Shown here: one piece after another, positions 1-48,396 of the stretch
Numbering within the stretch: the stretch's first letter is position 1
Layout of the letters: every line of letters begins with the position of its first letter
Source: Oleomonas cavernae
GTDB taxonomy: Bacteria; Pseudomonadota; Alphaproteobacteria; Zavarziniales; Zavarziniaceae
Assembly (NCBI RefSeq): GCF_003590945.1
Contig: NZ_QYUK01000011.1
Span: 1-64,000, forward strand
Reading direction: 5' to 3'
Length of the DNA stretch: 64,000 nucleotides
Position numbers and translations under genes: made by a program
The notes under the pieces: generated by a model
Databases searched by the model: none
What the model was told of the DNA's origin: nothing
The model's input: the letters and a program-made list of their open reading frames with translations, nothing else

Positions 1-1311
1 CGCCAGTCGAAATGATCTCGTAGGGTTCCTCGTTGTTCATGCCGAAGGCGATGTAGCGATCACCGAGCAAGTCATAAAGGACCTCGACGCAATACAGCGG
101 GACGGTCGCATCGGTATATTGGATCAGATGGCCTTCGGACACGCGCCACAACTCGCCACGGCCGTCGAAATGGTCGCCCGCGACGATCGACCAAGTGTCT
201 TCATCCATGTAATAGACCCGCTTGGCATAGATATGCCGCGACGCCGGCTTCAGTGTCGCCTCGACCACCCAGACCCGATGCAACTCATAGCGGGTCAATT
301 CCGGGTTCAGGTGCCCGGGCTTCAGAATGTCCGCGTATTTGAGCAAACGGTCATCGAGCCGGTTTGCATTGTAGGGAATATACATCTCCCGCTTGCCGAC
401 CAGCTTCCAGTCGTAACGATCGATGGCGCCGTTATACATGTCGAAATTGTCGTTGGTCCGGGCGCCGTCCGCTGCGATGCCCGGGTTGTCATAGCCGATT
501 TCCGGCGCGCGCAGGACGCGCCTGGTACCGGCATTGTAGATCCAGGCCTGCCGCGGCGCCCGCACCGGGTTGATGCGGTCGATCGCCAGCAAGGTGGTGC
601 CGGCGAGACGCTGGGGCTCCAGGATCTTCTGCACATCCTTCAGGACGATGTCGGCATTCTCCGGCGTCTCGGGAACACCGGAGCGGAAGGTCATCATATC
701 CCGGTAGATCATCGGGTCGAAGGAACCGTTCCGCTGCACCACGGCCTGGATCACGCGGCGTTCGAAGGCCTGCCCGCGATAGCGCACAAGGTGGTTCCAG
801 ATCGCTTCCTGCCCGGTCTTGGGGATCGGGAAGGGAACCGTCGAGAGACCCAGGTCGGACAGGCCATAGCCGCCGTCGGCCAGTTCGGTCTTGGTCGATT
901 GCGCCCGGATGTGCTGGTAGATCGTCTCGGGCAGGGCGGCACTCCGGTGCGTGGGATAGACGTTCATGAAGAACGTCTCCTTGTAGCGCGCCAGCATCGC
1001 GGCCTGGCCATCGGTCAGCTTGGCGCGATATTGCGCCATGTTCGCCGCGGTGATCTTGAACAGCGGCTTGTCCGCGGCATAGGGGTCAGGCCGCGAGACG
1101 CCCGGCACCACGCCCGGCAGCACCGTCTTGATCCCGCCGTCCCAGGCGGGGATCGAGCCGTCGGCATTGCCCGCGCGCTCGGCCCCCATCGGCGTCAGGT
1201 CGGTGCCCAGCCGGGCCGCCTCCTGCTCGGTAATCTTGGCAACGGCCGAAGCCGACACCATCAGGCACCCAGCATCGCCACCGCGGCGATCGTCCTCTTG
1301 TTCACGTTCAT
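1..1311 (-). CDS. DUF1329 family outer-membrane/periplasmic protein (C-terminus outside window; frameshift in signal peptide)
   Basis: The main frame is open from position 1261 down to the window edge, and its sequence is typical of the DUF1329 family, LolA/LolB-like proteins that nearly always sit beside DUF1302. The family's usual start is at 1311, behind a GGGGGAGGG ribosome site. It encodes MNVNKRTIAAVAMLGA and then hits a TGA, while the next frame continues as MVSASAVAKITEQEAARLG. Adding one base to the GG at 1264-1265 gives one continuous signal peptide ending ASAVA. It lies 14 bases after the DUF1302 stop, so the two form an operon. The role is probably in outer-membrane handling of hydrophobic compounds, which is a family inference. 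The C-terminus runs off the window. Without the correction, translation would start at 1261 with no signal peptide. Confidence 0.85.
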
Positions 1312-1325
1312 GCCCTCCCCCAATC

Positions 1326-3089
1326 TCAAAACCGAGCCGTCGCGTTCAACGAGAAGAAGTCGCGATCTTTGCCGTAGTTGTATTCGCCGCCGATGAAGCG
1401 GACATAGGAGCCGCCGACGCTGTAACCCTGATAGTCAAGATCGAGGCCCAGCCCCAGGGCCATGCGGCCCTCGATATAGGTGCCGTCCGAGGCCGTGCCG
1501 TTGACGTCGTGCGACCAGCTCAGGAACGGCTTGGCATTGATGCCGGCGACGACGTCGGGATAGTCGAAGATGGCGCGGCCACGATAACCCCAGGAGAAGG
1601 TGGTGACATAACCGTCGTCGTCGCACTTCTTCGCCGTGGTTTCGCGGCAGACGCCGTTGCGGGCGCCCACGCCATAGACCGCCGTGCGACCGTAACGCTT
1701 GTCGGCAGGCAGGCCGTCCAGCATTTCGGCGCCCACTTCACCCAGGACAGTGATACCGACAGCGCCCAGCATGGGCGGCAGGACCTTGAAGCCCGACACG
1801 GTGGCGCGGTACTGATCGGCCTCGTCATAGCCGTGGTAGAGCGCGCCCGAGCCTATCCTGACGTCGGGCGAAATCGGCGTATCGACGGCGGCACCACCCG
1901 AAGCGAAGGCGGCGAGCAGGTCGTTGGCGTTGAGCTGGACCGGCATGTCGGGGCGATAGCTCACCTCGCCGGCCACCGAGACCCCGGCCAGGACCGAGGC
2001 GAAGCTGAGGCCGTAGAGCTGAATATCCTCCGGGTATTCGATCACGTACCTGAAATTGCCGCCCAGCGGGTCGCCCGGGATGAAGGGCACGCCGCCGTTC
2101 GCCGCCGTGGTGTTGAAGACGCTGATATAGGGCGTGCGGCTGTGGTAGTTGACGAAATAGGCGCCGAACTCGGTGTCGAGACCGGCGGAGTAGTAACGCA
2201 GGGCGGCGCCATACTGGCCGCCGTCGTTGGCATCGAGGTCCTCCGCGCGCTTGGCGACGCGGCCGCCGGCGATCGCGGCGGTATCGGCCAGTGCCGCGCC
2301 CAGGGTGAAGCCGTTGCAGCCGTGGGCCACCGCGTCGACGGTCGAGAAGTAGGTGCCGCAGGCATCGATCTCGGTCGGCGCCCATTCGAACTCGTAGAAG
2401 GCCTCCAGGCTGAGATCGCCGGTGATGCCGAAATTGACATAGGCGAGGCCGACCGGGAGCAGCCCCTCCTTGAGCTCGGCCCCGGGGCGGCGGAAGGCGC
2501 TGACGTCGATCGGGTTGATCGAGTTGATGCCGCCGCCGATGAAGGTGCTCTCGCCCCAGCTCACCACCTGGCGGCCGACGCGGGCCTCCAGCGCATGGTC
2601 GCCCAGGTCGAAGGAGCCGCGGACATAGGCTTCGAGCAGTTCGACGCCCTTGAACTGGGCAAGATCGGACAGGCCGTCGTCGGACAGGGGCGCGCCGGCC
2701 CGGTAGCCGTTGACCATGTTGCCGTGGGGCCGATCGCCTTCCGACAGTTCATAGTCGTACCAGGCCTTGCCGCTGATCACGGCGCCGAAATTCTCGTAGG
2801 AAAGTTTCAGCTCGGACAGCGCCTTGACACCGCTCGAGACGACATCGCCCTTGTCGAAGTTCAGCGACGGATCGTCATAGGCATTGGTCGAGGCATAGCC
2901 GCCGGGCCGGTTGCCGGGCGCGATGAACTCGAGGCTGGGGTCTTCCGCGCGGATCAGGATGCCTGCGCTGAGGACGGTGGAGAATGAAATATCGACATTG
3001 CCCACCTGGTATTCCGCGGCGCTGGCGACAGTGGTGGTGAGCAGGCCCACGGCAGCCAGTGCGGACGCCGTGACGGCACGCGAATGAAT
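1326..3089 (-). CDS. DUF1302 family outer-membrane protein, 5' end lost
   Basis: About 580 residues match the DUF1302 family of beta-barrel-like outer-membrane proteins, paired here with DUF1329 as usual. The mature part begins AEYQVGNVDISF after a clear signal-peptide core (HSRAVTASALAAVGLL, then TVASA). The frame is open upstream to a stop at 3108-3110 but contains no ATG. The only listed initiator is a GTG at 3050 that would cut the signal peptide in half. Residues before His (codon at 3084-3086) do not look like this gene and instead coincide with the start of the SDR on the other strand. I conclude that the first few codons, ribosome site and promoter are missing. As drawn, the gene could not be exported normally. 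Confidence 0.85.
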   Translation of the reverse strand: MHSRAVTASALAAVGLLTTTVASAAEYQVGNVDISFSTVLSAGILIRAEDPSLEFIAPGNRPGGYASTNAYDDPSLNFDKGDVVSSGVKALSELKLSYENFGAVISGKAWYDYELSEGDRPHGNMVNGYRAGAPLSDDGLSDLAQFKGVELLEAYVRGSFDLGDHALEARVGRQVVSWGESTFIGGGINSINPIDVSAFRRPGAELKEGLLPVGLAYVNFGITGDLSLEAFYEFEWAPTEIDACGTYFSTVDAVAHGCNGFTLGAALADTAAIAGGRVAKRAEDLDANDGGQYGAALRYYSAGLDTEFGAYFVNYHSRTPYISVFNTTAANGGVPFIPGDPLGGNFRYVIEYPEDIQLYGLSFASVLAGVSVAGEVSYRPDMPVQLNANDLLAAFASGGAAVDTPISPDVRIGSGALYHGYDEADQYRATVSGFKVLPPMLGAVGITVLGEVGAEMLDGLPADKRYGRTAVYGVGARNGVCRETTAKKCDDDGYVTTFSWGYRGRAIFDYPDVVAGINAKPFLSWSHDVNGTASDGTYIEGRMALGLGLDLDYQGYSVGGSYVRFIGGEYNYGKDRDFFSLNATARF

Positions 3090-3679
3090 TGCAGGTGGGC
3101 CAGGCGATCACCTCGACGGTCGAGAAATTCGGCCGGCTCGACGTGCTGGTCAACAACGCCGGCATCGGCTCGTTCGGCCGGGTCGACATGCTCTCGACCG
3201 AGGAATGGCGCCGGGTGATGGCGGTCGATCTCGATGCCGTGTTCTTCGCCTGCCGTGCCGCCCTGCCGCACCTGGCGCAGGTGCGCGGCGCCATCGTCAG
3301 CACCGCGTCGATTTCGGGGACCGCGGCCGACTACGGCTTTGCCGCCTACAACGCCGCCAAGGCGGCGGTGATCAACCTGACGCGCGCCATCGCCATCGAC
3401 CATGCGGGCGAGGGCGTGCGCGCCAACAGCATCTCGCCCGGCTATGTCGTCACGCCGCTGACCGCGCCCTTGCAGGCCGACGACCGCATCGGCGAGGCTT
3501 ACCGCCAGCTCATCCCGCTGGGCCGGCCCTCGATGCCGGAGGAGCAGGCGGCGGCGATCCTGTTCCTGGCCTCCGACGATGCGAGCTACATCACCGGTGC
3601 CAACCTGATCGTCGACGGCGGCCTGACCGCGGCCACCGGCCAGCCCAATTTCGTGCGCATCTTCGCCGGGGCCAACTAG
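3089..3679 (+). pseudogene. Short-chain dehydrogenase/reductase, 5'-truncated
   Basis: The 196 visible residues start inside a classical SDR, at the stretch just before the FGRLDVLVNNAG motif. NNAG, the catalytic Ser (STASISG) and YNAAK are present, as is the usual C-terminus. The N-terminal Rossmann part with TGxxxGIG, roughly 55-60 residues, is missing. The only possible start is TTG at 3089, with no ribosome site. The 5' end abuts the equally truncated DUF1302 gene. Without the cofactor-binding motif it should be inactive unless the junction is an assembly error. It is followed after 76 bases by an acyl-CoA dehydrogenase on the same strand, so the intact gene was probably part of a catabolic operon. 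Confidence 0.85.
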
Positions 3680-3755
3680 AGCCGAACAAACCCGAGTAGA
3701 GGGGGAGGCATCCCTCCCGGTACCATTCAACGACAAGAATAGTGGAGGAGAGATC

Positions 3756-4988
3756 ATGGACCTTGCCCTGAGTGCCAAGGACGAGGCCTTCCGTGACGAG
3801 GTGCGGGGCTTCCTCGATGCCAGGCTGAACGATCGCCTGCGCGAGGCGGCGCGGCTGTCGACCAGCGTCTATACCGATCGCGAGACCATGCGCGAATGGC
3901 ACACCATCCTCCACGCCCAAGGCTGGATCGCGCCGGCCTGGCCAGTCGAATACGGCGGCTGCGGCTGGTCGGTGATCCAGCGCTATATCTTCGCGATCGA
4001 ATTGGCGCGGGCCAATGCGCCGGGCCTGTCGCCCATGGGGCTTGGCATGTGCGGGCCGGTGCTGATCGGCCACGGCAGCGCGGAACAGAAGGCGTTCTAT
4101 CTGCCGCGCATCCTCTCAGGCGAAGATTTCTGGTGCCAGGGCTATTCCGAGCCGGGTGCCGGCTCCGATCTTGCCGCCCTGCAGATGAGTGCCGTCGACG
4201 ACGGCGACCACTTCATCTGCTTCGGCTCGAAGATCTGGACCACTCACGGCCAGTATGCCAACCGCATCTTCTGCCTGGTGCGCACCGACAGGAGCGGCCC
4301 GCCCCAGCGCGGCATCACCTTCATCCTGATCGACATGGACACGCCGGGCATCGAGGTCAGCCCGCTGATCATGCTCACCGGCGAACATGTCCAGAACCAG
4401 ATCTTCTTCACCGATGTCCGTGTCCCCAGGGCCAATGTGGTGGGCCGCATCGGCGACGGCTGGACGGTCGCCAAATACCTGCTGGAATTCGAGCGCGGCG
4501 GCAATGCCTATGCCCCCTCGCTCCATGTCCGCCTCGACAAGATCCGCGCCATGGCCCGGGCGGAACAGGCGGGCGACGGCACCGCGCTGATCGATGACAG
4601 CAACTTCGCCCGGAAACTCGCCGAGGCCGCGGTGGAGATCATGGCGCTCGAATATACCGAGCATCGGGTGATGTCGGCTCTCTCCCAAGGCGGCACCCCG
4701 GGCATGCAGGCCTCGCTCATGAAGACCCGCGGCACCGAGATGAGCCAGCGCCTGACCGAACTGGCGATCGAGGCTGCGGCCTATTACACGGCGCCGTTCC
4801 AGCCCCATGCGATCAACCCGGCCGGCCCGGTCCCGGGCCACGCGCCGCCGGGCGGCAATGCCGCGCCCATCGGCCCCGACCATTCCCTGACCGTGATGGC
4901 CAAATACCTCAACGACCGGGCCGGCTCGATCTATGCCGGGTCGAACGATATCCAACGCAACATCATGGCCAAGGTGATGGGCCTGTAG
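3756..4988 (+). CDS. Acyl-CoA dehydrogenase family protein
   Basis: A 410-residue flavoprotein of the acyl-CoA dehydrogenase superfamily, which oxidises acyl-CoA to 2-enoyl-CoA and passes electrons to ETF. The three domains are visible: helical N-terminus, the beta-domain with the YSEPGAGSDLA FAD/substrate signature near residue 130, and a C-terminal helical domain ending GSNDIQRNIMAKVMGL. The start is supported by GTGGAGGAGAG just upstream. The protein has 'GSND' where many members have the catalytic 'YEGT', so the base may lie elsewhere and the substrate cannot be named. It follows the truncated SDR and precedes the FecR cassette, separated by a CRP-type palindrome just past its stop. Confidence 0.93.
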   Translation: MDLALSAKDEAFRDEVRGFLDARLNDRLREAARLSTSVYTDRETMREWHTILHAQGWIAPAWPVEYGGCGWSVIQRYIFAIELARANAPGLSPMGLGMCGPVLIGHGSAEQKAFYLPRILSGEDFWCQGYSEPGAGSDLAALQMSAVDDGDHFICFGSKIWTTHGQYANRIFCLVRTDRSGPPQRGITFILIDMDTPGIEVSPLIMLTGEHVQNQIFFTDVRVPRANVVGRIGDGWTVAKYLLEFERGGNAYAPSLHVRLDKIRAMARAEQAGDGTALIDDSNFARKLAEAAVEIMALEYTEHRVMSALSQGGTPGMQASLMKTRGTEMSQRLTELAIEAAAYYTAPFQPHAINPAGPVPGHAPPGGNAAPIGPDHSLTVMAKYLNDRAGSIYAGSNDIQRNIMAKVMGL

Positions 4989-4996
4989 CGTCCCGC

Positions 4997-5012
4997 TGTG
5001 ATCCGCATCACA
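4997..5012. promoter_or_regulatory. CRP-type palindrome upstream of the FecR-Crp-cyclase operon
   Basis: TGTGATCCGCATCACA matches the CRP core TGTGA-N6-TCACA exactly, and the arms extend to CTGTGAT/ATCACAG. It starts 9 bases after the stop of the preceding gene and lies 104 bases before the FecR start. A possible -10 element, TATTCT, is at 5028-5033, which would place the box over the -35 region. Direct control by the Crp homologue encoded two genes downstream is inferred, not shown. Confidence 0.65.
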
Positions 5013-5116
5013 GGCGGCGCGGCCCTGTATTCTTTCCCCGGCACAACCGCGCTATGGTGTCGCCGTCGTTGCGCCACCGGCAGGGCGGCGTGCGCATTGA
5101 GGTGGGGAGATCTCGG

Positions 5117-5743
5117 ATGGCAATCCTTCGTGCCGCCTGGGCGGCATCAGGGCTCCTGGCCGGTCTGCTGATCGGCCTGATGCCGATCGGTGCCGGCGAC
5201 GTTGCCCGCGCTGATACGGCCGCCGCCGGCCTGGTGCTCAACCTTCGCGGGAGTGCCGAGGCGACCAGGGAAACCGTCCAGCGGCCGCTGTCGCCGGAAG
5301 ATTCCGTCTTCACCGGCGATGCGGTGGCCACGGGCGCCAAGTCCCGGATCGAAATCCGCCTGGGCCGCGATACCACCATCGCCATCGGCGAGAACGGCCG
5401 GGTCAAGATCGACGATTTCCTGGCCGAAGCGGGCGGGGAAATTTCGCTCGAGGCCGGGGCCCTGATGCTCGACAAGGATCCCGAAAGCGTTGCCCGGCCG
5501 ATCAAGGTCAACAGCGACTTCGGCCAGATCGCGGTGCGCGGCACCAATTTCTTCGCCGGCCCCAGCCGGGGAAGCTTCGGCGTGCTGCTGCTCCGCGGCC
5601 ACGTCGTGGTCACGGCTGCCGGCACCAGCGTGGAACTGAAGGCCGGCGAGGGCACCGACATCGCCTATCCCGGCGCCCCGCCGTCGCCGCCCAAGGTCTG
5701 GGCGCCCGAGCGGGTCGAGGAGGCCCTGGCCCAACTTCGGTGA
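5117..5743 (+). CDS. Periplasmic FecR-domain protein
   Basis: The protein has 208 residues. An N-terminal signal peptide (hydrophobic core LLAGLLIGLMPIGAG, probable cleavage after ARA) is followed by one FecR domain, with conserved stretches such as SRIEIRLGRDTTIAIGENG and QIAVRGTNFF. Unlike classical FecR it lacks the cytoplasmic anti-sigma segment and transmembrane helix, so it should be a free periplasmic domain. No sigma factor gene is nearby. ATG 5117 is chosen because GGTGGGGAG precedes it and it gives the complete signal peptide. It is followed after 39 bases by a Crp regulator and then a CHASE2 cyclase. FecR and CHASE2 proteins commonly neighbour each other, which suggests it acts with the CHASE2 sensor. 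That partnership is an inference. Confidence 0.85.
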   Translation: MAILRAAWAASGLLAGLLIGLMPIGAGDVARADTAAAGLVLNLRGSAEATRETVQRPLSPEDSVFTGDAVATGAKSRIEIRLGRDTTIAIGENGRVKIDDFLAEAGGEISLEAGALMLDKDPESVARPIKVNSDFGQIAVRGTNFFAGPSRGSFGVLLLRGHVVVTAAGTSVELKAGEGTDIAYPGAPPSPPKVWAPERVEEALAQLR

Positions 5744-5782
5744 GCGGCGCCGTGTGTCTTGCCGCGTTTCGGGAGGGGGCCG

Positions 5783-6484
5783 ATGGCTGAAGCAGATCTC
5801 GTCGAAGCCTTGCTTGCCTCGACCGAGGCCTTCGGCGCCCTCGAGCCCGAGGATCTGGCGATCTGCGCCAAGGCGTTCCGGGAGGTCCATTTCGACAGCG
5901 GGCGCATGCTGTTTGCCGTCGGCGATCCCGGCTCCATGGCCTATCTCCTGGCCGAGGGGCTGGTGCGCCTTGCCCTGACCACCGCTTCCGGTCGCGAGTT
6001 GAGCTTCCGGGTCGCCGGTCCCGGCGAGTTGATCGGCGAGATCGCGGCCTTCGACAGCGGCCCGCGGACCGCCGATGCCACCGCCATTTCGCCGGTTCGG
6101 GCCTACGGCATTTCCGCCGCCGATTTCGACCATCTATTCGAGACCCGCCCCCGGCTGGCCCGCTCGGTGATACACCTGCTGTGCCGCCGCCTGCGGGCGA
6201 CCACCGATCAACTGGAGGGGATCGCGCTCCACAAGATCGAGGTGCGCCTGGCGCGCTTTCTCCTGGGCCTGCTCGGCCAGCGGACCGCCCCGCCAGGGCG
6301 GCGCCTGTCGCTCGAACTCGGCTACTCGCAAAGCGAGCTGGCACGCCTCGTCGGCAGCAGCCGGTCCAAGCTGAACATGGCGCTGGGCGTGCTCGAGGAT
6401 GCCGGTGCCATCAAACGCACCAGCGATCGCCTGTTCTGCGATCCCGCCATGCTCGCCCAATTCGCAGACTCGGCCGATGATTAG
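5783..6484 (+). CDS. Crp/Fnr-family transcriptional regulator
   Basis: The protein has 233 residues: a cyclic-nucleotide-binding fold (about residues 15-130, with PGELIGEIAAFDSGPRTADA in the phosphate-binding cassette region) and a C-terminal winged helix-turn-helix (YSQSELARLVGSSRSKLNMA). The cassette keeps GE and R-T near the positions that bind cAMP in CRP, so a cyclic nucleotide ligand is plausible. It has no N-terminal cysteine cluster, so it is not an FNR oxygen sensor. In the recognition helix the Glu and second Arg that read TGTGA in E. coli CRP are Ser and Met. ATG 5783 is preceded by GGGAGGGGG. Its last 8 bases overlap the cyclase start, which indicates translational coupling with the probable source of its ligand. 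Confidence 0.92.
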   Translation: MAEADLVEALLASTEAFGALEPEDLAICAKAFREVHFDSGRMLFAVGDPGSMAYLLAEGLVRLALTTASGRELSFRVAGPGELIGEIAAFDSGPRTADATAISPVRAYGISAADFDHLFETRPRLARSVIHLLCRRLRATTDQLEGIALHKIEVRLARFLLGLLGQRTAPPGRRLSLELGYSQSELARLVGSSRSKLNMALGVLEDAGAIKRTSDRLFCDPAMLAQFADSADD

Positions 6485-8447
6485 GCTGCTGCGCGGGAGA
6501 ATCGCGGCTGCCGCCCTAGGCGCCATGGCCTGCTTCGTCGTCTATGTCGCCTTCACCCTGTTGTTGCCGGACGTCCGGCAAAACCTGGAGGAGCGGGCGA
6601 CGGATCTCACGCTGGGCCTGGCGATGGAACTTGTGGCGACACCGGCGCCAGGGTCCACCCCGGTGGTGGTGATCGATATCGACGCGGCGAGTACCGGTGC
6701 CATCGGCGCTTGGCCCTGGCGGCGTTCGCTGCTGGCCGATCTCGTCGACAAGGCCGCTGCCGCCGGTGCCGTCGCGATCGCGATCGACATTCTGTTCGCC
6801 GACCCGGACCAGCGCTCGCCGGCGGCCCTGGCGCGCCGGCTGGGCCAGATGGTCGAGGACCCGTCGCTCGCCGCTTTGGCGGATCGCCTCGACGACGACG
6901 ACAGGCGCTTCGCCCAGGCCCTGGGAGGCAGGCCGACGGTGCTGGGCTTTGCCCTGACGCCGACGGCGGCCAAGACGGTGCGCGGCGCCCCCGTCCTGGT
7001 GCGCGGCCGCGCAGGCCTTGACGGGATGTGGCGCTTTGCGGGGGCCGATGCACCGACCGAGGTGCTGGCGGCGGCCGCCACTGGCAGCGGTTGCCTGGCC
7101 CTGCCGGGCGACAGCGACGGGATCGTCCGCCGGTTACCCCTGTTCGTCGGCGTCGGCGACGAAATCCGCCCTGGACTCGCGCTCGAAGCCGTGCGCGTGG
7201 GGGTGGGCGCTTCGCTCTACAAACTCGACGGCGGGCAGGGTCGGTTTGCCACCGGCAGCATCACCGGCGCCCTGGCCGCCGATGCGATGCTCAGGCTGCC
7301 GCCATTGGCTGCGACCCCGCCGATAAAGGCGATCCCGGCCCGTGACGTGCTGGCGGCGAACGGGCCTGTGGCGGCACTTGCCGGCGCGATCGTCTTCATC
7401 GGGGGCTCGGCGCCGGAACTGGGGGGCCTGCGGGCGACAGCGGGCGCGTCGCTGACCCCGTCGGTCATGATCCATGCCGCCGCCGCACGGCAGATCCTGC
7501 AGGGCTTCGTCCCGCGGACATCGGCGCTGCTCCAGCGCTACGCCTATATCGTCGCGGGTCTGGCCGGACTGGTCGGCGTGGCCATCCCTTTGCTGCTGCC
7601 GCCGCTCGCCGGTGCGGGCGTCATGCTGGCGGCGATCGCGGCTTTCGCGGTGTTCGTGGTCAATGCCGCCGCCGGCGGCGTTCTGATCGAGCCCGCTTTG
7701 GCCCTGGTGCTGGCCGCAACCGGCTATGTGGTCACGGCGATCCTGGCCTTCGCCTTCCAGCACCGGCGCGAGCGGCACATTCGCCGGCGCTTCGAGCAGC
7801 ATCTCTCGCCCCACGTCGTCGCGATGATCGCCCGTGATCCTTCCCTGCTGAAACTCAAAGGTCAGCGCCGCGAGGTGACGGCCATGTTCACCGATATCGC
7901 CAACTTCACCGGCCTGACCCATGGCACCGATCCGGAGACGCTGGTGGCCATGCTCGACGCCTATTTCGGCGGCATGTCCGAGATCGTCGTGGCCCATGGC
8001 GGCATGGTCGACAAGTTCGTCGGCGACGCCATCCATGCCCTGTTCAATGCCCCGCTGGAGCAGCCCGGGCACGCGCAAGCCGCCGTGCGCTGCGCCCTGG
8101 CGCTCCACGCCTGGAGCGAGGCGTTCCGCCGCCGGGAGGTGCCGGCGGCCCTGGGCTTCGGCCATACGCGGATCGGCGTCGAGACCGGCGAGGTGATCGT
8201 CGGCGATGTCGGCACGGGCTCGAAGCTCGACTATACCGCCTATGGCGACACGGTGAATGCCGCCGCAAGGCTCGAGGCAGCGAACAAGGAACTGGGCACG
8301 ATGATCTGCGTCGGGCCCGGCACGGCCGCCCGGTGCCCGGCCGGGCTGCTGCGCCCGGGCAAGACCATCCAGTTGCGCGGCTTCGACGTGCCGATACAGG
8401 TTTTCGAGCCTGTTACCCAGGGGACAGGCGGCTCACAGGTGCCATGA
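6477..8447 (+). CDS. CHASE2-domain class III adenylate/guanylate cyclase
   Basis: The protein has 656 residues. Order: one N-terminal membrane helix (about 10-28), an extracytoplasmic CHASE2 sensor domain (about 40-345), three closely spaced membrane helices (about 355-440), then a cytoplasmic class III cyclase domain (about 465-640). The cyclase has both metal aspartates (MFTDIANFTG and VGDAIHALF), the purine-specifying Lys in DKFVGD, and the transition-state Asn/Arg in TVNAAARLE, so it should be active as a homodimer. The product is most likely cAMP. ATG 6477 overlaps the Crp stop. It is the third gene of the FecR-Crp-cyclase cassette: an outside signal would alter cyclic nucleotide levels read by the adjacent regulator. 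Confidence 0.93.
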   Translation: MIRLLRGRIAAAALGAMACFVVYVAFTLLLPDVRQNLEERATDLTLGLAMELVATPAPGSTPVVVIDIDAASTGAIGAWPWRRSLLADLVDKAAAAGAVAIAIDILFADPDQRSPAALARRLGQMVEDPSLAALADRLDDDDRRFAQALGGRPTVLGFALTPTAAKTVRGAPVLVRGRAGLDGMWRFAGADAPTEVLAAAATGSGCLALPGDSDGIVRRLPLFVGVGDEIRPGLALEAVRVGVGASLYKLDGGQGRFATGSITGALAADAMLRLPPLAATPPIKAIPARDVLAANGPVAALAGAIVFIGGSAPELGGLRATAGASLTPSVMIHAAAARQILQGFVPRTSALLQRYAYIVAGLAGLVGVAIPLLLPPLAGAGVMLAAIAAFAVFVVNAAAGGVLIEPALALVLAATGYVVTAILAFAFQHRRERHIRRRFEQHLSPHVVAMIARDPSLLKLKGQRREVTAMFTDIANFTGLTHGTDPETLVAMLDAYFGGMSEIVVAHGGMVDKFVGDAIHALFNAPLEQPGHAQAAVRCALALHAWSEAFRRREVPAALGFGHTRIGVETGEVIVGDVGTGSKLDYTAYGDTVNAAARLEAANKELGTMICVGPGTAARCPAGLLRPGKTIQLRGFDVPIQVFEPVTQGTGGSQVP

Positions 8448-8685
8448 TACGACTTGTTCCTGAGGGCTGAGAGGCGCCGCCACGCTAGAGCGGACTGTCC
8501 GACCCGGTTCCTCGCTGTTACGGTTGCTTGCCGCTGCGTTTCACGCGGTCGCGTTGGGGGAATGTGTTCAATCCGGTGTGTTGTAGCCAGCCGCGGCTTG
8601 CGGCAGGCAACGCCCCCTGCGGTCCGGCAAGCCCGGTTTGTTTGCGTGGCCTCACTCAGGTCTGCACTGAACACAGGAGACGGCA

Positions 8686-11600
8686 ATGGCCGACATTCGT
8701 GGGACGACTTCCGGCAACACGCTCGACAGCGCCGACGGCGTCACCAGCGGTGATGACGAGATCTATGGCCGCGGCGGCGACGACGTCGTTTTCGGCCTGG
8801 GCGGCGATGATTTCATCGCCGACGGCGCCTGGAGCGGCGGCCCGGCCCGCACCCCGTTCAATGCCTTCCTGCACGGCTTCAGCACCTGGAGCAGCGGCGG
8901 CGACGACGAATTCCACGGCGGCTCGGGCGACGACACGCTGATCGGCGACGGTGGCGACGACACCCTGTTCGGCGACGGCGACGACGACACGCTCCAGGGC
9001 GGCCAGGGCAACGACACGCTGGACGGCGGCTCGGGCAACGACATCCTGATCGACGACACCGGCAACGAAGTCATCCGCGGCGGCACCGGCACGGACACGG
9101 TGCGCTACAACATCAGCGGCAGCAGCGATGCCGAGCCGACGGACTCCGAGCCCTTGTTCCCCGTGGGCGTAAAGGGCGTGTTCGTCGACATGGAAACGGG
9201 CCGCTCGGGTTTTGCCTTCGACGATCCCGCCGACAACCGCATTTTCGACGTCCGCTACGACAGCGCCGAAATCTTCGAACTGGGTTCGCGCAATGACGAA
9301 TTCCACGGCAACAACGCCAGCCAGACCATCCGTGGCCAGGGCGGTGACGATGTGCTCGAAGGACGCGGCGGCGGCGACACGCTGGACGGCGGCACGGGCA
9401 GCGATACGGCGAGCTATGAAAGCGCGCCAAGCGCCGTCTTCGTCACCCTGCGCTTCGGCGACATCAACATCATTTCCGGCGCCTCCGACGAACTGGGCGA
9501 CAGCCTGATCAGCATCGAGAACCTGACCGGTTCGCGCTTCGACGACGGGCTGACCGGCGGCGACGGCGCCAACATTCTCAAAGGCCTGAACGGCAACGAT
9601 TTCCTGGATGGCCGCGGCGGCGCCGACCGGCTGGACGGCGGCGGCAATACCGACACCGCCGACTACCAGGCCTCGAACGCGGCGATCAACATCTCGACCG
9701 ACGGCACCGCGGGCAGCGGCGGCTTTGCCGCGGGCGACCGCCTGACCAGCATCGAGAACATCATCGGTTCCAGCTTCAACGACGTGATCAGCGGCCACAG
9801 CAACGCCATCAACAATGTCTTCGAGGGGCGGGGCGGCAACGACAATCTCTTCGGCGTGGCCGGCGACGATATCCTCGCGGGCGGCACCGGCATCAACCTG
9901 ATCGATGGCGGCACGAGTGTCGACACGGTCAGCTACCGCGACATCGCGGGGCCGGTCAGCGTCTCGCTGCAGGACTTCGGCAACGGCGGCAGTGCTTCGG
10001 CCACCAATCTCAGCGACACGATCTTCGGCGTCGAGAATGTCGACGGCACCGATGCCGGCGACTTCGTGTTGGCCGACGCCAACGCCAACCGCCTGCGCGG
10101 CTTCGGCGGCAATGACGACCTGCGCGGCATCGGCGGCGAGGATGTGCTCGACGGCGGCGACGGCGACGACATCCTGATGGGCGGCACCAGCGGCGACCAG
10201 TTGCTGGGCGGCAAAGGCACCGATACGGCTAGCTATCGCCTGTCGGAGAAGCCGGTGCAGGTCAACCTCGCCACCGGCGAGACCGTCGGCGGTGAGGCGG
10301 CGGGCGACACCCTCTCCAGCATCGAGAACCTGATCGGTTCCTCCTTCGCCGACCGGCTGGTCGGCAACGCCTTCGCCAACGAGTTTTCCGGCCTGAACGG
10401 CAACGACACCCTGATTGGCGGCGCCGGCGCCGACCGCTTTGCCGGCGGCAGCGGCACCGATACGGTCTCCTACGAAACCTCGTCCTCGCCCATCATCCTC
10501 GACTTGGCCAACCCTGTGGTCAACACCGGCGACGCGGGTGGCGACACCTTCGACAGTATCGAACGCTTCATCGGCACCGGCGGCGCGGACATCATGTTCG
10601 GCGACGACGGCAACAACGAACTCCTGGGTGCCGGCGGGGCCGACTTCCTGTTCGGCCGCTGGGGCGACGATACCCTGCGCGGCGGTGGCGCCAGCGACAC
10701 GCTGGACGGCGGCGGCTGGAACGACCAGCTCTTCGGCGACGATGCCGACGACACGCTGGTGGGCGGCGCCGGATCCGACCTGCTCAACGGCGGGGCCGGG
10801 CGCGATACCGCGTCTTATTCGACGGCACCCGGGCGCATCGTCGTCGACCTGAACGACCCCACCCAGAACCGGGGCGATGCGGAAGGCGATAGCTTCGTCA
10901 GCATTGAGGTGATCACGGGCAGCACCGCCGACGATATCATCCGCGGTGCCAACGGCCTGGCGATGACGCTGATCGGGGGCGATGGCGCCGACGAACTGGT
11001 GGGCGGCAACCTCGACGATGTGCTGGAGGGCGGCCTGAAGGACGACGTCTTGACCGGCGGCATCGGTGCCGATGCGCTGCTGGGCGGGGACGGCATCGAC
11101 ACCGCCTCCTACGAGAATTCGATCCGCAGTGTGGTGATCGACCTGCGCCCCGGCGGGTCCCTGACCGGGGGTGACGCGGTTGGCGACACCTTCTCCTCGA
11201 TCGAGGTGTTCCGCGGCACCAACTTCTCCGATGTCTTCATCGGCAACGGCCAGGATCTCACGTTCCAGGGCCTGGGCAGCGGCGACACGTTCATCGGCAG
11301 CGCGGGCCGGGAGGTCTTCGACGGCGGGCCGGGCGACGACGTGGTCACCTATGCGCTCTCCGCCGATGCCATCACGCTCGACCTGTTCGATCGCACGCAG
11401 GACACTGGCGACGTGGTGGGCGACCGTTTCCTGTCGATCGCAGCCATCAATGGCACGGCCCTCGAGGATCGCCTGAGCGGCAACGACGAGGCAAACCACT
11501 TCCAGGGCCTGAGCGACGACGATGTGATCGACGGGCGTGCCGGCAACGACATCCTGTCGGGCGACGGGGGCGACGATACGCTGATCGGCGGCCAGGGCGC

Positions 11601-12231
11601 GGACAGCATGGCCGGCGGCGACGGCATCGACATCGCCAGCTATCTCCAGTCCACCGGCGTGACGGTTGCCCTCGACGGGACCCTGACCGCGACGGGTGAC
11701 GCCGTCGGCGACAGCATGGAGGAAATCGAGAACCTGCTCGGCTCGCGCACCGATGCCAACCGGCTGCGCGGCAACGGCGGCGTCAACGAGATCACGGGCG
11801 GCGATGCCCGCGATACTTTGGAAGGCCAGGGCGGCGACGACGTGCTGCATGGCGGCAAGGATGTCGACCGCCTGTTCGGCGGCGGCAACAACGACCGCCT
11901 GTTCGGCGAGGCCGGCGACGACATCCTGTCGGGCGGTTCCAACCGCGACACGCTGATCGGCGATGCCGGCAACGACACGCTGACCGGCGGCACCGACCTG
12001 GACCGCTTCCAGTTCACCACCCGCGAATTCGGCCGCGATACCGTGACCGACTGGCAGGGCGGCACGGACAAGCTGCGCACCAACCTGGCCGACGACCTGT
12101 CCGACTTCACCGTGACCGGCAACGGCACGACCGAGGTGGTGCTGACGCTGCTGTCCGATGTCGACAGCGTGATCGTGCTGCAAGCCGCCTCGGCCTTCAC
12201 CATCACGAACACGGATTTCGAGTTCGTGTAA
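8686..12231 (+). CDS. Large RTX (haemolysin-type calcium-binding) repeat protein
   Basis: 1,181 residues made almost wholly of GGxGxD nonapeptide repeats, which fold into calcium-filled beta-rolls outside the cell. There is no N-terminal signal peptide. The C-terminus (a DRFQF block, then an acidic-hydrophobic end, DFEFV) resembles a type I secretion signal. Superimposed on the nonapeptides is a longer unit of about 100 residues: DTxSY, a beta-strand pair, GDxxGDxxxSIENxxGSxxxD, then GG repeats. About nine copies of the SIENxxGS-like block are visible. No protease, lipase or other enzyme domain was seen, so it may be an adhesin or surface-layer-like protein. No type I secretion genes lie in the window. 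Start ATG 8686 follows an AGGAG. The 238 bases upstream hold its promoter region. Confidence 0.92.
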   Translation: MADIRGTTSGNTLDSADGVTSGDDEIYGRGGDDVVFGLGGDDFIADGAWSGGPARTPFNAFLHGFSTWSSGGDDEFHGGSGDDTLIGDGGDDTLFGDGDDDTLQGGQGNDTLDGGSGNDILIDDTGNEVIRGGTGTDTVRYNISGSSDAEPTDSEPLFPVGVKGVFVDMETGRSGFAFDDPADNRIFDVRYDSAEIFELGSRNDEFHGNNASQTIRGQGGDDVLEGRGGGDTLDGGTGSDTASYESAPSAVFVTLRFGDINIISGASDELGDSLISIENLTGSRFDDGLTGGDGANILKGLNGNDFLDGRGGADRLDGGGNTDTADYQASNAAINISTDGTAGSGGFAAGDRLTSIENIIGSSFNDVISGHSNAINNVFEGRGGNDNLFGVAGDDILAGGTGINLIDGGTSVDTVSYRDIAGPVSVSLQDFGNGGSASATNLSDTIFGVENVDGTDAGDFVLADANANRLRGFGGNDDLRGIGGEDVLDGGDGDDILMGGTSGDQLLGGKGTDTASYRLSEKPVQVNLATGETVGGEAAGDTLSSIENLIGSSFADRLVGNAFANEFSGLNGNDTLIGGAGADRFAGGSGTDTVSYETSSSPIILDLANPVVNTGDAGGDTFDSIERFIGTGGADIMFGDDGNNELLGAGGADFLFGRWGDDTLRGGGASDTLDGGGWNDQLFGDDADDTLVGGAGSDLLNGGAGRDTASYSTAPGRIVVDLNDPTQNRGDAEGDSFVSIEVITGSTADDIIRGANGLAMTLIGGDGADELVGGNLDDVLEGGLKDDVLTGGIGADALLGGDGIDTASYENSIRSVVIDLRPGGSLTGGDAVGDTFSSIEVFRGTNFSDVFIGNGQDLTFQGLGSGDTFIGSAGREVFDGGPGDDVVTYALSADAITLDLFDRTQDTGDVVGDRFLSIAAINGTALEDRLSGNDEANHFQGLSDDDVIDGRAGNDILSGDGGDDTLIGGQGADSMAGGDGIDIASYLQSTGVTVALDGTLTATGDAVGDSMEEIENLLGSRTDANRLRGNGGVNEITGGDARDTLEGQGGDDVLHGGKDVDRLFGGGNNDRLFGEAGDDILSGGSNRDTLIGDAGNDTLTGGTDLDRFQFTTREFGRDTVTDWQGGTDKLRTNLADDLSDFTVTGNGTTEVVLTLLSDVDSVIVLQAASAFTITNTDFEFV

Positions 12232-12248
12232 CACGCTCGATCAAAAAG

Positions 12249-12390
12249 CCCTCTCCTCCTAGGAGGAGAGGGTTGGGTGAGGAGGGCGGTCGGCGTAGGG
12301 CGCGGTCCGTACCGCCGACCACCTCACCCTCCCGTCGCTTCGCGCCGGGCCCCTCCCTCTCCCCCGCACGCGGCGGAGAGGGATTTTCTT
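12249..12390. repeat. Inverted repeat and terminator after the RTX gene
   Basis: A perfect 24-base palindrome occupies 12249-12272 (CCCTCTCCTCCT and its complement). Arms GGGTGAGG and CCTCACCC lie further out. A second stem at 12355-12382 (CCCTCTCC/GGAGAGGG) is followed by TTTTCTT on the plus strand. The last stem would end RTX transcription. The overall shape is that of a dispersed palindromic element between convergent genes. Confidence 0.6.
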
Positions 12391-13435
12391 ACGCCGCCAG
12401 GACCATCTTCAACGCGCCGTCCAGCTTGCCGTCGAAAATGCGGTAGGCGTCCGCACCCTGGTCCAGGGTCATGCGATGAGTGATGACCCGTTCGGGCTTC
12501 AGGCGGCCGCCGGCGACCAGCGGGATCAGTTGCGGCCACATGGTCTGGACGAAGCAGCCCGCCACCCGGAAGGTCAGGGTCTTGTTGAAGGCGGTCCACA
12601 GCGGATACTTAAACGCCTGGTTCTGGTTGACGCCGAAGACCGAGATGCTGGCGCCCTGGCCGGCCAGGGCGATGGCAAGCTGGATGGTCGCGTCCGATCC
12701 CACCGCCTCGACCGAACATTGGACCATGGCCCCGCTGGTTGCCTCGCGCACGAAGGCCACGGGGTCGGTGGGGTCGACCGGGATGGCGCCCAGTTGCTGC
12801 GCCCGGGCCCGCCGCGACTCGACCAGGTCGATGGCGAAGACCTTCGCGGCGCCCAGGGCGAAGGCGCATTCGATCGCCAGCAGGCCGATCGGGCCCAGGC
12901 CGACGATGGCGACCGTCTTGCCCGGGCCGATATCGGCATTGAGGCAACCCATATAGGCGGTGGGCAGGTTGTCGGTCAGCATCAGGGCCTGGTCGTCGGT
13001 GATGCCGTCGGGGATTCTCAGGGCGTTGCTGTCGGCATTGGGCACGGCGATGCCCTCCGACTGGCAGCCGGGCAGGGCGTGACCCAGGCCGTAGCACGAG
13101 ATCGTGCGCTGCGGGCATTGGGCGGCCAGGCCGGCGAAGCAGGCCGGGCACTTGCCGCAACTGCCGAAATTGACCGCGGCCGAGACCATCACCCGGTCGC
13201 CGACCTTCAGCGACTTGACCCCGCTGCCCACCTCGGCGATTTCGCCCACCGCCTCGTGGCCGACGCAGAAGCCCAGGTCCGGCGTGAAGCCGTGGCCGTG
13301 ATAGATGTGCAGGTCGCTGCCGCAGATGCCGCAGGCGGTCATCTTGACCACGGCACCGGTTACCCCCATCGGGGCCGCGTCCTTAACCTGGTCGCAGCGG
13401 ATGTCTTTTTCGCCGTGATAGCAAAGCGCCTTCAT
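12389..13435 (-). CDS. Zinc-dependent alcohol dehydrogenase (MDR family)
   Basis: 348 residues of the medium-chain dehydrogenase family. It has the catalytic zinc ligands ([11 protein letters not shown] and GHEAVG), a structural zinc cysteine cluster ([18 protein letters not shown]) and a Rossmann GLGPIG with the acidic residue after the second strand (FAIDLVES), indicating NAD(H). It oxidises a secondary alcohol or aldehyde; the substrate is unknown. Its ATG overlaps the TGA of the upstream acyl-CoA dehydrogenase by four bases, so the two are translated together. It is the last gene of the minus-strand operon that starts with the phosphotransferase at 16574. Confidence 0.92.
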
Positions 13436-14667
13436 GACCGGTCGTTCCTTCCCTGCGCGTTGTATTCCGCGATCTTGAGCTTGCCCAGTTGGGACAGGTG
13501 CACCTCGTCGGGGCCGTCGGCGATGCGCAGGAACCGGTTCAGGGTGAAGAAGCCGGCGATCGGCGTATCGGCGCTCACCCCCATGCCGCCATGGGCCTGA
13601 ATCGCCCGGTCGGTCACCGTCTGAGCCATCTGGGGTGCCACGATCTTGATCGCCGCGATCAGGTCGCGGGCACCCTTGTTGCCGAAGCGGTCCATGTGGT
13701 CGGCGGCCTTGAGCGTCAGCAGGCGGGCCTGCTCGATCTCGCAATAGGACCGTGCGACGTCCTGGCGGATGCTGCCCTGGTCGGCCAGCTTGCGGCCGAA
13801 GGCGACGCGGCTTTCGACCCGCCTTGCCATGATCTCCAGCGCCCGCTGGGCCTGGCCGATCGAGCGCATGCAGTGATGGATGCGGCCCGGGCCCAAGCGC
13901 CCCTGCGCGATCTCGAAGCCGCGGCCTTCGCCTAAGATCAGGTTTTCCTTGGGGACACGGACATTCTCCAGCAGCACCTCGGCCTCGCCGCCGGGCGAGT
14001 TGTGGTGACTGAAGACGCTCTGGTTGCGGACGATCTGCACGCCGGGGGTGTCGCGCGGCACGATGATGGTCGAATGCTGGCGATGCTTGGGCGCCGTGGT
14101 GTCGGTCTTGCCCATCACGATGAGGAGCTTGCAGCGCGGGTCCATGATGCCCGAGATCCACCACTTCAGCCCGTTGATGACGTAATCGTCGCCATCACGC
14201 ACGATCGAGGTTTCCAGGTTGGTCGCGTCCGACGAGGCGACATTCTTTTCGGTCATCAGATAGGCCGAGCGGATCTCGCCGGCCAGCAAGGGGGCGAGCC
14301 ACTGCGCCTGCTGCTGCGGCGTGCCGAACTTGGCCAGCACTTCCATGTTGCCGGTATCGGGGGCGGAGCAGTTGAAGATCTCCGACGACCACGGCACCCG
14401 GCCCATGATCTCGGCCAGGGGTGCATATTCGAGATTGGTCAGGTCGGCACTGAAATGGCCGTATTCCTCGGGCAGGAACAGGTTCCACAGGCCGGCCGCC
14501 CGGGCCTTGGCCTTGAGTTTGTCAAGGGCCGGCCAGGGCTTCCACAGATTGGCCATGTCGTGGACCCAGTCGTGGTGCGTCTGCTCGGCCGGGTAGACAT
14601 GGGTGTCCATGAAATCGTTGAGCTTGTCGATCAACGCCTGGGCCTTGTCCGAATGCTGGAAATTCAT
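13432..14667 (-). CDS. Acyl-CoA dehydrogenase family protein
   Basis: 411 residues, close to the ACAD10/11-like and phosphotransferase-associated acyl-CoA dehydrogenases. Visible features are [15 protein letters not shown] in the FAD region, the WWISG loop, and a C-terminal [15 protein letters not shown] helix. It would desaturate an acyl-CoA, possibly after its hydroxyl has been phosphorylated by the kinase-like protein in the same operon. That is the known logic of human ACAD10/11 and bacterial 4-hydroxyacid pathways, and is applied here by analogy. The start ATG 14667 has a GGGAGAGATCAC ribosome site. A longer in-frame start at 14694 is rejected because it lies in the adjoining palindromic repeat. 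Confidence 0.93.
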
Positions 14668-47687: not shown

Positions 47688-47703
47688 TGTGAACCATGTC
47701 ACA
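47688..47703. promoter_or_regulatory. CRP-like palindrome 2 before the DUF4412 pair
   Basis: TGTGAACCATGTCACA is a perfect TGTGA-N6-TCACA core, 52 bases before ATG 47756. It is the same core as the box at 4997. Confidence 0.6.
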
Positions 47704-47755: not shown

Positions 47756-48396
47756 ATGCGTTGCCTTGCCTTGTTCGTCGTCGCCGTCCTGCCCTTCACG
47801 TTCCGCACCGAGCGGGCGGATGCGGCCGCGGACAGCCAGATGGTGCCCAAGGTCGACTACAGCGCCACCTACACGATCGAGCCCGATGGCGAGACCATGA
47901 CCATGGCCCATCACGACGGCATCATCCGCCTGGAAATGGGCGCGGCCGGCGAGGCGATCGCCATCCTGCTGGAGCCGTTGGCGCACCGCGCGATCATGCT
48001 GATGCAGGGCATGGCGATCGAGCTCGACACCCGCCAGGGCAGCCCCGGCATCTCGGCCAAGCCCGGCGTCGGTCCCGGCGATGTCCTGGGCGGTTCCCGC
48101 ATCGACCCGACCCCGCTGGGGAGCAAGACCATCGCCGGCCTCACCTGCGTGGTCTATGACGCCATCTGCAACGCCGGCGGCGAAGAGGTCCATTCCAGGG
48201 TCTGCCTGACGCCCGACAATGTGATGCTCGAATCCGTTTCGACGGACCCGGGCAAGCCCTTCACCATGACCGCGACCCAGGTTTCGATCGCCCCGCAAGA
48301 CCCCGCGCGCTTCAGCCCTCCCGCCGGTGTCCAGGTGATGAGCATGGATCAGATGATGCAGGGGATGGGGGAATGCCCGGTTTGCCGGTCAGGTGA
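47756..48396 (+). CDS. DUF4412-type secreted protein, first copy (frameshift at 3' end)
   Basis: The restored protein has 213 residues. A signal peptide (CLALFVVAVLPFTF, cleavage near ADA) is followed by a domain with PKVDYSATYTIEPDGETMTM and VCLTPDNVMLESVS, as in DUF4412 proteins. As written the frame runs on into the next gene and gives an apparent 481-residue fusion. Adding one base to the G run at 48367-48371 instead ends the protein as MMQGMGGMPGLPVR at TGA 48394-48396, matching the end of the second copy (MMQGLGG...). ATG 47756 is chosen because it gives a full signal peptide. Function unknown; probably periplasmic. Confidence 0.75.

Follow-up and report, generated by a model that had tools for sequence, protein, structure and literature searches.

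The closest described counterpart of the locus reported here is the clr-cyaD1-smc02177/smc02178 region of S. meliloti (PMC5498481, PMC10127613, PMC4222275), in which clr, cyaD1, and a FecR gene (SMc02177) are accompanied by a sel1-repeat gene and a phosphodiesterase gene. Clr is a regulator dependent on cAMP or cGMP (PMC5498481; PMC10127613). The smc02177 gene is activated by Clr and required for the control of secondary infection, and a smc02177 mutant is still responsive to Medicago shoot extract (PMC5498481). CyaK has been assigned the shoot-extract signal (signal 1), and CyaD1/D2 a second one; both pass through the outer-membrane protein NsrA (PMC7529298). FecR-domain and CHASE2 proteins also occur together in two other described systems. 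In a Campylobacterota cluster (PMC9239204), a CHASE2 cyclase and a FecR-domain envelope protein have been proposed to form one pathway, but the cluster as described contains a phosphodiesterase gene and a TPR gene instead of a Clr-type Crp. In the BiofilmReg operon of Burkholderia (PMC5192318), a FecR-domain protein adjoins a CHASE2 sensor protein, but the output consists of a histidine kinase and a response regulator, and the FecR protein carries LysM.

Organization and conservation of the FecR-Crp-cyclase locus

The window, i.e. the whole 64,000-nt stretch of the Oleomonas cavernae genome that was analysed, contains three genes encoded in one direction (plus strand) behind a TGTGA-N6-TCACA box: a FecR-domain gene (5117-5743; PF04773, E 3e-11 by Pfam), a crp gene for a Clr-type Crp/Fnr regulator of 233 aa (5783-6484; PF00027, E 2e-19, and PF13545, E 7e-11 by Pfam), and a gene for a CHASE2 adenylate cyclase of 656 aa (6477-8447, ATG at 6477), which was assigned from the ORF, its Pfam domains, and a match to CyaD1 in a plasmid collection. 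The cyclase start lies inside crp, giving an 8-nt overlap that runs to the end of the crp stop codon (6482-6484). These coordinates agree with the tight linkage and 8-base overlap given in the original prediction, and the perfect palindrome that it placed upstream was recovered by sequence search as TGTGATCCGCATCACA at 4997-5012 (extended form CTGT-N10-ACAG). Its description of the unit as undescribed does not hold, given the known clr-cyaD1-SMc02177 locus and the FecR-CHASE2 clusters of Campylobacterota and Burkholderia.

The three genes probably represent an alphaproteobacterial Clr-CyaD1-FecR module in which a cAMP loop would be closed through the promoter dyad. A periplasmic signal would stimulate the membrane cyclase through its CHASE2 domain and raise cAMP; the neighbouring Clr-type Crp, together with the nucleotide, would then occupy TGT-N10-ACA dyads, including that at the front of the module, and so induce the operon along with the secreted FecR protein. 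The periplasmic FecR protein may serve as an output that the response requires, or it may act in feedback by touching CHASE2 or a receptor in the outer membrane.

The S. meliloti locus encodes the same three protein families, with identities of 37% (Crp), 37% (cyclase), and 31% (FecR) to the window proteins, and the DNA-contact residues of Clr are kept in the window Crp. The two loci differ in gene order (clr-cyaD1 with the FecR gene in the opposite orientation in S. meliloti), in the absence of a smc02178-like or phosphodiesterase neighbour alongside the window module, and in the promoter element, a Clr box preceding a module gene in S. meliloti and a CRP-like box in the window.

As had been expected of a genuine unit, FecR-Crp-CHASE2 triplets are conserved: a search of other genomes yielded the trio in nine further alphaproteobacteria, in seven of which the FecR domain was verified by Pfam and in two by a model built in this study. 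The order fecR-crp-cya is retained in three of them (G001, of the same genus, G193, and G399), and the genes are rearranged within a few kb in the other six (G365, G329, G392, G327, G308, and G098). Two genomes of the same genus, G002 and G004, lack the trio. Across 11 trios, the pairwise identities of FecR, Crp, and cyclase are correlated (r 0.91-0.94), which partly reflects species relatedness. These data place a module that has been studied as a rhizobial symbiosis circuit in other alphaproteobacteria. A crp-CHASE2 cyclase pair was also found on plasmid p2 of Gemmobacter fulvus (L066); there, a Clr-core site precedes crp by 80 bp, and a FecR gene lies at a distance of about 6.6 kb.

The Clr-type regulator and the promoter dyad

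The module Crp has the architecture of the Crp/Fnr family, i.e. a cNMP-binding domain (PF00027) and an HTH_Crp domain (PF13545). Among solved structures, S. meliloti Clr is its best match (7PZA/7PZB, E 3e-39); the regulator encoded in the S. meliloti locus was in turn matched to 7PZA as the same protein. In the Crp tree, the trio Crps, with one exception among 11 (that of G098), and S. meliloti Clr form a single clade of 14 rows (support 99/98), in which 11 rows have a cyclase next door and three do not; the module Crp groups with Clr, apart from the other Crps of its own genome. DNA-contact residues of Clr and CAP have been named previously (PMC10127613). Alignment to Clr, in which SRSKLN and SQ are aligned, showed that the Clr contacts Q184, S194, R195, K197, and N199 are all kept in the module Crp, part of whose DNA-recognition region (VGSSRSKLNM) is encoded at 6350-6379 on the plus strand. 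E181 and R185 of E. coli CAP are not present, and the canonical CRP/CAP recognition motif RE(T/M)VGR is absent from the protein, which has RSKLNM instead. The ligand-region residues GE, RT, and TTD are kept.

The box at 4997-5012 lies 8 bp after the stop codon of the upstream gene, with its centre about 112 bp before the fecR start. Base composition predicts 0.017 perfect boxes for a 64-kb stretch and about 3e-5 for the leader of about 115 bp; genome-wide, 10 distinct perfect boxes were found vs 1.5 expected. A second perfect box in the window, at 47688-47703, precedes by about 60 bp an ORF that encodes an exported protein and starts near 47756.

CRP and Clr boxes have the TGT-N10-ACA frame in common, and the recognition core of Clr is GTNNC-N4-GNNAC. 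The module's own box, TGTGAT-N4-ATCACA, lacks this core and has the form of a CRP site of E. coli. Since the module Crp keeps the Clr contacts and lacks E181 and R185 of CAP, its recognition helix does not predict a CAP-type box. The Clr core is present in 7 of the 26 upstream regions of trio genes, several of the seven sites coming from one genus, vs 1.2 expected. The promoters with this core include those of fecR in G001 and G193, and also the S. meliloti box TGTTCCGCGGGAAACA, an experimentally proven Clr box. The Clr-core sites precede fecR at -157 in G001 and -127 in G193, and the corresponding position of the window box is -120. Since Clr-type sites occupy the matching position in sibling promoters, the proposed autoregulatory loop through the promoter dyad is plausible. 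A search of the window's genome for a Clr regulon with GTTCC-N4-GGAAC gave 9 sites vs 18 in a reversed control, i.e. no enrichment.

A second regulator of the same genome has to be considered as a reader of the window box. The Crp encoded at C11:979943-980656 (L168:1444-2157) carries a CAP-like RETVAR recognition helix, and a perfect box lies 75 bp upstream of its start. Judged from these sequence features, it is a candidate reader of the 4997-5012 box equally as good as the module Crp. There is somewhat less than an even chance that the box belongs to this CAP-like protein, in which case the module would be placed under a global regulator, with no local loop, and the adjacent Clr-type Crp would act at other sites. 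The excess of perfect boxes in the genome fits a CAP-like reader, as does the lack of E181 and R185 in the module Crp. The positions of the Clr-core sites in the G001 and G193 modules speak against this assignment: these sites and the window box are about equally far upstream of fecR, so the position is that of an ancestral Clr-type site. Furthermore, the T127-type adenine contact is missing from the CAP-like Crp, whose sequence, inspected by eye, reads A-D instead of T-S, so its binding of cAMP is uncertain.

The CHASE2 cyclase and the role of FecR

The cyclase consists of an extracytoplasmic CHASE2 sensor domain (aa 25-361, 6549-7559; PF05226, E 2e-41) and a class III cyclase domain (aa 464-604, 7866-8288; PF00211, E 4e-19; aligned to 3R5G), both on the plus strand. 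All the class III catalytic residues are present, with roles assigned by position: D473 and D517 for metal, K513 and T587 for the base, and N594 and R598 for the transition state. The K/T pattern is that of P. aeruginosa CyaB (3R5G alignment), i.e. a class IIIb-like adenylyl pattern. In its domains and residues, the protein has what is required of a class III (IIIb-like) CHASE2 adenylate cyclase, and it is predicted to make cAMP in response to an outside signal. When its matches in an annotated plasmid collection were ordered by the product of coverage and identity, S. meliloti CyaD1 came first. Scanning genome contigs with the cyclase returned distant cyclase-domain matches only. A second CHASE2 cyclase (C11:2130324) and further cyclase-domain genes are encoded in the genome, together with at least seven Crp/Fnr-type proteins, including the module Crp, and the cAMP pool and its regulators are therefore likely to be shared. 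The suggestion of a self-contained circuit is thus unsupported.

The FecR protein has 208 aa from the ATG at 5117, which is preceded by AGGTGGGGAG. It is small and predicted to be secreted, consisting of a leader and a single PF04773 domain according to Pfam and the structure model. The AlphaFold model, for which the alignment was built from genome loci only, is confident (pLDDT 84) and matched the cell-surface signalling domain of PupR (6OVK) in Foldseek with an E value of 5e-5 and a TM of about 0.5; a sequence search against the PDB gave nothing significant. The periplasmic FecR/CSS domain of the FecR/PupR anti-sigma signalling proteins is thus present, as judged by PF04773 and the 6OVK fold match. 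In contrast to those proteins, the module FecR has no cytoplasmic anti-sigma part, its 208 aa being taken up by the leader and one domain, and no sigma gene was found among the ORFs adjoining the module. Elsewhere in the genome, PF04773 was detected only in a near-identical contig-end copy of the same stretch. The statement that no sigma factor accompanies FecR was borne out in these respects.

In a search that started from FecR, covering 385 genomes of the alphaproteobacterial class, a CHASE2 gene was adjacent (within 1.5 kb) at 16 of the 30 best loci, which were those examined. When the four trio loci were left out, the count was 12 of 26, and 11 of these 12 had no Crp in the same stretch. 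The FecR gene thus accompanies the CHASE2 sensor more widely than it does the regulator.

Two roles can be considered for FecR, each of which we rate at rather less than even. As a part of the sensor, it would relay the state of the envelope or of an outer-membrane receptor to CHASE2, with cAMP replacing the sigma factor. The PupR-like fold and the frequent adjacency to CHASE2 point in this direction, as does the requirement for the outer-membrane protein NsrA upstream of CyaD1 in S. meliloti (PMC7529298); moreover, FecR is found beside CHASE2 cyclases in Campylobacterota and beside CHASE2 kinases in Burkholderia, so that the common part is FecR plus CHASE2 and not the output. Against a sensor role stands the smc02177 mutant, which kept its response to shoot extract (PMC5498481). 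This negative result does not bear on FecR acting with CyaD1, however, because the shoot-extract signal runs via CyaK and not CyaD1. A further objection is that the S. meliloti FecR gene is itself a Clr target and is needed for the downstream phenotype (PMC5498481). Alternatively, FecR may be an output only, i.e. an envelope or secretion factor that is induced with the module and stays outside sensing. This is what would be expected from smc02177, with its activation by Clr, its requirement against secondary infection, and its dispensability for perceiving shoot extract (PMC5498481), and type I secretion or RTX genes adjoin several modules. A pure output role is at odds with the presence of FecR genes beside CHASE2 genes at loci that have no Clr-type Crp in the vicinity, an arrangement that suggests a tie to the sensor and not to the regulon. 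We tentatively propose, while regarding it as somewhat doubtful, that FecR proteins of the small, secreted type act in the periplasm as dedicated regulators of CHASE2 sensors, serving cAMP or kinase signalling without a sigma factor, and that the Clr-type Crp closes the loop in alphaproteobacteria. If this is true, FecR-type cell-surface signalling can go through cAMP or a kinase.

Adjacent genes and the contig-end copy

Directly after the cyclase gene, a large RTX calcium-binding repeat protein (PF00353) is encoded at 8686-12231; the Clr core and the TGTGA box were both sought in the leader of this gene, and neither was found. An RTX gene is also located beside the crp-cyclase pair of Gemmobacter (L066), and HlyD-type secretion genes lie alongside the modules of G193 and G399 (L100 and L156, respectively).

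A second copy of the module, 99.8% identical, is located at a contig end (C8:5328-8716, L046), with a frameshift in both crp and the cyclase gene. A duplication of the trio in the genome was considered and is unlikely, given the near-identity, the frameshifts, and the contig-end position; the C8 copy is probably unpolished contig-end sequence. Positions 3083-13775 of the window match the start of contig C8 in inverted orientation (99.8%, 13 gaps), and positions 1-3082 have no match there. A shared AATGAATTG is present at the 3083 join. The SDR gene at 3089-3679 lacks its N-terminus in the window and is full-length on C8, so position 3083 looks like a misjoin or a rearrangement.
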